Made by a program: the position numbers and the translations under genes. A DNA stretch of 35,031 nucleotides from an uncultured Caldisericota bacterium. Its GTDB lineage: Bacteria; Caldisericota; Caldisericia; Caldisericales; Caldisericaceae. Shown here piece after piece: positions 650 to 1,478 of the stretch. Location of the stretch: contig CAJXKN010000005.1 of assembly GCA_913055585.1 (NCBI GenBank), forward strand, positions 1-35,031, read 5' to 3'. Positions within the stretch are counted from its first letter, which is position 1, and the number at the start of each line of letters is the position of its first letter. Below the pieces are notes generated by a model, which was not told the origin of the DNA, did not search any database, and was given only the letters and a program-made list of their open reading frames with translations.

Positions 650-663
650 CATCTTAGTTGCTT

Positions 664-693
664 GGGCAGAGAGAAATCTCTGCCCAGCTTTTA
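664..693 (+). terminator. Rho-independent terminator after HU
   Basis: GGGCAGAGA-GAAA-TCTCTGCCC hairpin followed by a T-rich stretch (agcttttatt). Confidence 0.75.
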
Positions 694-762: not shown

Positions 763-930
763 GATGCAATGGAGCGATTTGCTACGCCTACATATCTATT
801 ACCTGAACAGGTCTTTGAGGATGGAACACCAACCGAATCTGCTACACCCCTTGCCTGGGCTCATGCGGCATACATCATCCTTTATAATCTTATTAATGCA
901 CTCTCTTCTAATAAAAAAGGAATTATTTAG
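763..930 (+). pseudogene. C-terminal remnant of a GH15 glucoamylase-like gene
   Basis: Frame opening after the stop at 718-720 reads ...DAMERFATPTYLLPEQVFEDGTPTESATPLAWAHAAYIILYNLINALSSNKKGII*. LPEQV...(P)TxSATPLAWAHAxYI is the GH15 C-terminal signature. No catalytic (alpha/alpha)6 barrel precedes it. Confidence 0.72.
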
Positions 931-931
931 C

Positions 932-1342
932 TCAAAGATCTTGGAATATTCGTGCTGTTGAAAGACCTGGTGCAGAAACATTTAAATCGAGAAAATAGCC
1001 AAATGGTGTTTGATGTACCTCATACCCTACATTTTCAAGTCTCTCTTTTGCTTTGTTCAATATTTCCTGAGCTATCTTTGGATCCGCTTTGCTCTTTGAC
1101 AAATGTGCAAAAGAATGCAGAATAATACGCTTTGTCTTGTTTTTTCCTGCAGCCCACTTCAAGCTCTTGATAAGCTTCTTGACTTTTTTATTTACCTCTT
1201 CCTCATCTTCCTTTTCTGCTTGAATAAAACCTACAAGTACATTATCAAAACTTTCCGTTCGCCTGTCATCTGCGAATGATTCGAGCGTCTTTGTCGTAGT
1301 TTTATAGCTGAATTTGTCCATATAAATTATTAGTAGTTTCAT
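932..1342 (-). CDS. stand-alone archaeal-type threonyl-tRNA synthetase editing-domain protein
   Basis: MKLLIIYMDKFSYKTTTK...TKRIILHSFAHLSKSKADPKIAQEILNKAKERLENVGYEVHQTPFGYFLDLNVSAPGLS. FAHLS and (x)PFGY motifs match the archaeal ThrRS N-terminal editing domain (tRNA-Thr_ED). RBS GGAGGTGCAT supports the start at 1342. Confidence 0.8.
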   Translation of the reverse strand: MKLLIIYMDKFSYKTTTKTLESFADDRRTESFDNVLVGFIQAEKEDEEEVNKKVKKLIKSLKWAAGKNKTKRIILHSFAHLSKSKADPKIAQEILNKAKERLENVGYEVHQTPFGYFLDLNVSAPGLSTARIFQDL

Positions 1343-1478
1343 ATGCACCTCCAATAAACAATATAGCATATTTTATAATCTTGTGAATATACATAAAAAC
1401 TTTTTCATTTGCAAAATAGTTTGAATATATTTATAGTATAATAAAATACTTCATATAAACTAATTGGAGGTATAAAAA

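Follow-up and report, generated by a model that had tools for sequence, protein, structure and literature searches.

A gene for a stand-alone archaeal-type ThrRS editing domain (tRNA-Thr_ED/DTD fold; positions 932–1342, minus strand) has been characterized in the window, that is, the whole 35,031-nt stretch of DNA from an uncultured Caldisericota bacterium. The 136-aa protein belongs to a broad, deep and distinct bacterial clade with a systematically altered amino-acid pocket. We propose, with a probability of about 0.5, that it acts in trans as a ribose-ester deacylase whose acyl specificity has changed.

Gene and genomic context

The gene is complete, with the ATG at 1342 and TAA at 934–932. 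The sequence reveals a Shine-Dalgarno box GGAGG (1348–1352, minus strand) with a 5-nt spacer to the start codon, and a promoter-like site (1360–1387, minus strand) comprised of TTCACA and TATATT separated by 16 nt, with TG preceding TATATT; the latter is a consensus match only, sites of this type being observed 11 times with 4.8 expected. A longer, 145-aa version starting at 1369 is disfavored, as ortholog alignments begin at the ATG at 1342. Seven additional genomes from the family of the studied bacterium carry orthologs with 71–77% identity, and an eighth one contains a contig-end fragment (65%). In comparisons with orthologs dN is 0.15–0.21 and dS is saturated, and for a close pair of loci (L070 and L071) dN is 0.009 and dS, 0.127. 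Hence, the gene is under strong purifying selection, and the existence of orthologs together with low dN at saturated synonymous sites confirms that the ORF is not a chance frame. The complete ORF of the original prediction, with its FAHLS and PFGY motifs, is thus retained. The copy in genome G001 was considered as a possible broken gene, and this was rejected, as the in-frame TAA falls at the second codon of the aligned start and a GTG is located just downstream.

Two convergent features, a short remnant of a glycoside-hydrolase gene and an HU gene, flank the gene on one side, and on the other side it is divergent from a 50-aa ORF and a gene for an EamA transporter; within the window we see no evident operon partner. 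Just past the HU gene (344–649) we observe a terminator-like hairpin (662–687, plus strand) of 11 pairs with a T-rich tail. The remnant (763–930, plus strand, 55 codons), which separates the editing-domain gene from the HU gene, matches the C-terminus of a GH15 glucoamylase (PDB 1lf6, E = 2.6e-8; positions 386–425 of 427 in the PF00723 profile, just below the cut-off), and, lacking the upstream part, is likely a decayed gene. In five loci from other Caldisericota (L067, L068, L070–L072) the editing-domain gene is found upstream of genes for an Orn/Lys/Arg decarboxylase and an apparent V-type ATPase, in the first two of them directly after ruvB; the location in the window differs from all of these. 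Other recurrent neighbors across the loci are a class I methyltransferase, MFS, Oxidored_FMN and Nitro_FeMo-Co.

Domain family and fold

The protein consists of a single PF08915 (tRNA-Thr_ED) domain and has neither a catalytic nor an anticodon-binding domain: residues 1–134 match positions 1–135 of the 137-position profile with 138 bits (E = 2.7e-40, cut-off 30.2), and NCBIfam models of ThrRS and Ser-tRNA(Thr) hydrolase match partially, well below their cut-offs. The nearest sequences with solved structures are archaeal ThrRS editing domains. The AF2 model built on an 80-row alignment (mean pLDDT 93.5) has archaeal ThrRS editing domains with substrate analogues as its top fold matches, with TM of 0.91 to the Pyrococcus domain 1y2q, followed by DTD with TM of about 0.65. 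Both the profile search and the structure prediction, which could have given an unrelated fold, agree with the predicted ThrRS-editing/DTD fold and with a stand-alone domain encoded in a bacterial genome.

Distribution and phylogeny

Half of the genomes from the window's family (9 of 18) contain the gene, which was not found in the other searched genomes of the class and phylum. Scanning of GTDB species genomes yielded 543 confirmed relatives, the best 80 of which come from Caldisericota (the relatives of the studied bacterium), Bacteroidota, Cloacimonadota, Atribacterota, Chlorobiota, Calditrichota, Fermentibacterota and others. The occurrence is patchy, with a clear member in 12 out of 99 Cloacimonadota genomes. 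No match to the gene was found in the searched phage and plasmid records, and a role in defence was rejected, as PADLOC matches are weak only.

The phylogenetic tree (64 rows) contains 48 rows of the stand-alone clade, including the distant members L056, L057, L059 and L062, while its canonical side is formed by two sequences from archaea and eleven ThrRS domains that are of archaeal type but come from bacteria. The branch between the stand-alone clade and canonical ThrRS domains has a length of 1.45 changes per site and full support (SH-aLRT 100), and the seven Caldisericota rows cluster together with support 99. The window protein is thus part of the broad bacterial clade, and this tree with two archaeal sequences gives no indication of a recent transfer from archaea, so that acquisition from archaea as a local event, suggested originally, is not supported. 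Archaeal-type long ThrRS frames with a canonical editing domain are encoded in bacterial genomes at eleven loci (L040–L044, L046, L048, L052, L055, L058, L066), and one genome (G309) has an additional separate 151-aa copy besides the archaeal-type ThrRS.

Active-site residues and clade signature

In the archaeal domain PabNTD, seven side chains are located at most 6 Å from the scissile bond, namely, P80, F81, A82, H83, Y120, K121, and E134 of the other monomer (PMC4491819). Here, Pab numbering is used for archaeal positions, and residue counts refer to the alignment A2 of 80 homologs. The clade retains three of these side chains (F81, A82, H83) and changes four (P80S, Y120F, K121L, E134R). In HSFAHLS (residues 76–82; 1097–1117, minus strand), F78, A79 and H80 correspond to Pab F81, A82 and H83, while H76 and S77 replace Y79 and P80; F78, H80 and the serine in the P80 position are found in all 80 homologs, and A79, in 78. 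The TPFGYFLD motif (residues 112–119; 986–1009, minus strand) has F117 in place of Y120 and L118 in place of K121. Here, G115 and F117 are invariant (80/80), and L118 is present in 76 homologs, the remainder having methionine (three) or isoleucine (one). In PGxSxARIF (residues 125–133; 944–970, minus strand), R131 replaces E134, again in 80 of 80 homologs, and the canonical GHP is lost; distant clade members have either arginine or lysine in the E134 position. Hence, instead of the archaeal set Tyr120/Lys121/Glu134, the window protein and its clade have phenylalanine, leucine and arginine, whereas K121 is conserved in 13 of 13, and E134, in 12 of 13 canonical domains. Invariant in both groups are E43, D46, H80 and G115, and F78–A79 and P113–F114 are nearly so.

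Moreover, comparison of the alignments reveals a clade signature Kx[LI]KWxAxKN (residues 59–68; 1139–1168, minus strand), in which K62, W63, K67 and N68 are each conserved in all 80 homologs; canonical domains have neither W63 nor the complete motif.

Three other bacterial stand-alone tRNA-Thr_ED proteins (L051, L060 and L061) fall outside the main clade; two of them, L051 and L060, retain GHP, yet have arginine in the E134 position and asparagine in the K121 position.

Candidate substrate and comparison with tRNA-editing systems

In the archaeal enzyme, the alpha-NH2 group is held by Glu134 from the other monomer, and K121M is severely compromised, methionine being natural in this position in DTD (PMC4491819). 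As the residue holding the amino group and the one whose substitution leaves the enzyme nearly inactive are both replaced, Ser-tRNA(Thr) is unlikely to be the main substrate, and changed acyl specificity seems to be the simplest interpretation of the residue changes. On the other hand, the Y120A/E134A archaeal enzyme is still active (PMC4491819), so the replacements need not change the substrate.

We suggest that the protein is probably a dimer that likely accommodates the ribose of a terminal adenosine, in the way A76 of tRNA is bound by the archaeal ThrRS editing domain, and that it would hydrolyze an acyl ester on the 2'- or 3'-OH with assistance of the neighboring hydroxyl. The amino-acid pocket has been rebuilt, with the cross-subunit amino-group Glu changed to Arg, the water-positioning Lys to Leu, and Tyr to Phe. 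The substrate, acted upon in trans, would most likely be an acylated or aminoacylated tRNA different from L-seryl-tRNA(Thr), the acyl group being, for example, N-blocked, hydroxy- or acidic.

The ThrRS of the window's genome is bacterial, with the intact N2 editing site (HSTAH, DLCRGPH; tRNA_SAD, PF07973), and in the 42 genomes carrying the family, ThrRS, where found, is of the bacterial kind and mostly full-length. The genome also encodes a canonical DTD (at a separate locus, C105), and so do most relatives. Together with the altered pocket, these two findings weaken the original suggestion of Ser-tRNA(Thr) or D-aminoacyl-tRNA proofreading. A redundant Ser-tRNA(Thr) hydrolase acting in trans as a backup for N2 editing seems doubtful to us. 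It would agree with the common fold family, with the dispensability of pocket side chains for serine discrimination in archaeal enzymes (PMC4491819), and with U73 of tRNA-Thr(CGU) in the window's genome, a determinant reported for the archaeal domain (PMC8762117). However, N2 is intact in the same genome, K121 is lost and E134 is inverted to arginine, and relatives lacking the gene have U73 as well, which makes it uninformative as a correlate of the gene, while the tRNA-Thr examined in one carrier (G390) has A73.

Comparison with known systems shows the same mixture of likeness and difference. With archaeal N-terminal editing domains (P. abyssi 1y2q/4rrq, M. jannaschii 4rrf) the protein shares the fold over the full domain length, as well as E46, D49, F81–A82–H83 and PFG (Pab numbering); in contrast to them, it is stand-alone, bacterial and encoded beside an N2-containing ThrRS, has the four substitutions and no GHP, and features the added KWxAxKN. 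The crenarchaeal ThrRS-2/Ser-tRNA(Thr) hydrolase (A. pernix 4rr6) is likewise encoded apart from the catalytic domain and acts in trans, but it retains the canonical Tyr/Lys/Glu as well as an anticodon-binding domain (PMC4491819), and its ThrRS partner lacks editing. Thus, neither archaeal arrangement, fusion to ThrRS or an anticodon-binding domain combined with an editing-less partner, is observed here. Stand-alone tRNA-Thr-ED beside archaeal SepCysS and N-terminal fusions to some bacterial SepRS are also known (PMC5424206, PMC8762117); compared by description, they resemble the studied protein in being outside ThrRS, as a small stand-alone homolog, and in occurring in bacteria. In the bacterial fusions the serine motif is reported as fully conserved (PMC5424206, PMC8762117), whereas in the window protein it is lost, and none of 57 genomes has SepRS above the TIGR00470 cut-off. 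On the basis of this SepRS search, a partner role in the Sep-tRNA(Cys) pathway was rejected, the weak matches being mostly in PheRS-alpha-sized frames.

Association with sirtuins

A Sir2-family gene, confirmed by Pfam as SIR2, is found in 20 of the 80 loci from several phyla, always on the same strand and in 16 cases directly downstream, often with a gap of 0–1 nt. In the evenly drawn Cloacimonadota sample a sirtuin directly follows the gene in 10 out of 12 carriers. The linked subtype, defined by at least 65% identity to the L077 query, is present in 10 of 12 carriers vs. 2 of 87 non-carriers among the 99 genomes (Fisher p = 2.7e-10, ignoring shared ancestry). Still, the coupling, common in parts of the clade, is not obligatory: three carriers (G012, G387, G478) have no sirtuin match, and the only sirtuin of the window's genome (on C4) is unlinked and belongs to another subtype, so the linkage was rejected as an explanation for this genome.

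O-acyl-ADP-ribose is the product of sirtuins and a substrate of macrodomains. The repeated linkage could point to a non-tRNA substrate, and the domain might have been recruited to hydrolyze the acyl-ribose ester made by the sirtuin, which we regard as unlikely. This product chemically resembles the 2'/3'-acyl ester on the terminal ribose of tRNA, crystal structures of DTD with ADP exist, the loss of the amino-group ligand fits an acyl group without an alpha-amine, and the co-occurrence in Cloacimonadota is pronounced; however, the related gene pairs are not independent, and the genomes with an unlinked or missing sirtuin do not fit. In its broader form, with a bacterial tRNA-proofreading domain repurposed as a partner enzyme of the sirtuin to remove, in place of mischarged tRNA, O-acyl-ADP-ribose or else a related acyl-ribose ester that is not a tRNA, the idea is likewise improbable.

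DTD (PF02580) and ATD are trans-acting ribose-ester deacylases of the same superfold, and are distant from the window protein (about 9–17% identity); PF02580 is not among its Pfam matches up to E = 1. That the protein is a second proofreader, chiral or for glycine, with DTD-like action is very improbable, since, despite the DTD-like fold and the methionine in the K121 position of three homologs, a true DTD is already encoded separately, the Gly-cisPro motif is not evident, and sequence and fold are much nearer to the ThrRS domain.

Implications

The proposed deacylase with altered acyl specificity represents a clade for which we found no description in the literature searched, although few subscription papers were covered and an earlier description is possible. 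The domain is labelled archaea-specific by Pfam, yet the bacterial clade is conserved in hundreds of species, and the single known activity of the domain is linked to the pocket that this clade has replaced. The mechanism proposed for the archaeal enzyme, independent of side chains, has been argued to restrict the functional diversification of the fold (PMC4491819), and a direct test of this idea is provided by a clade in which the pocket is rewired and a new operon partner recurs.
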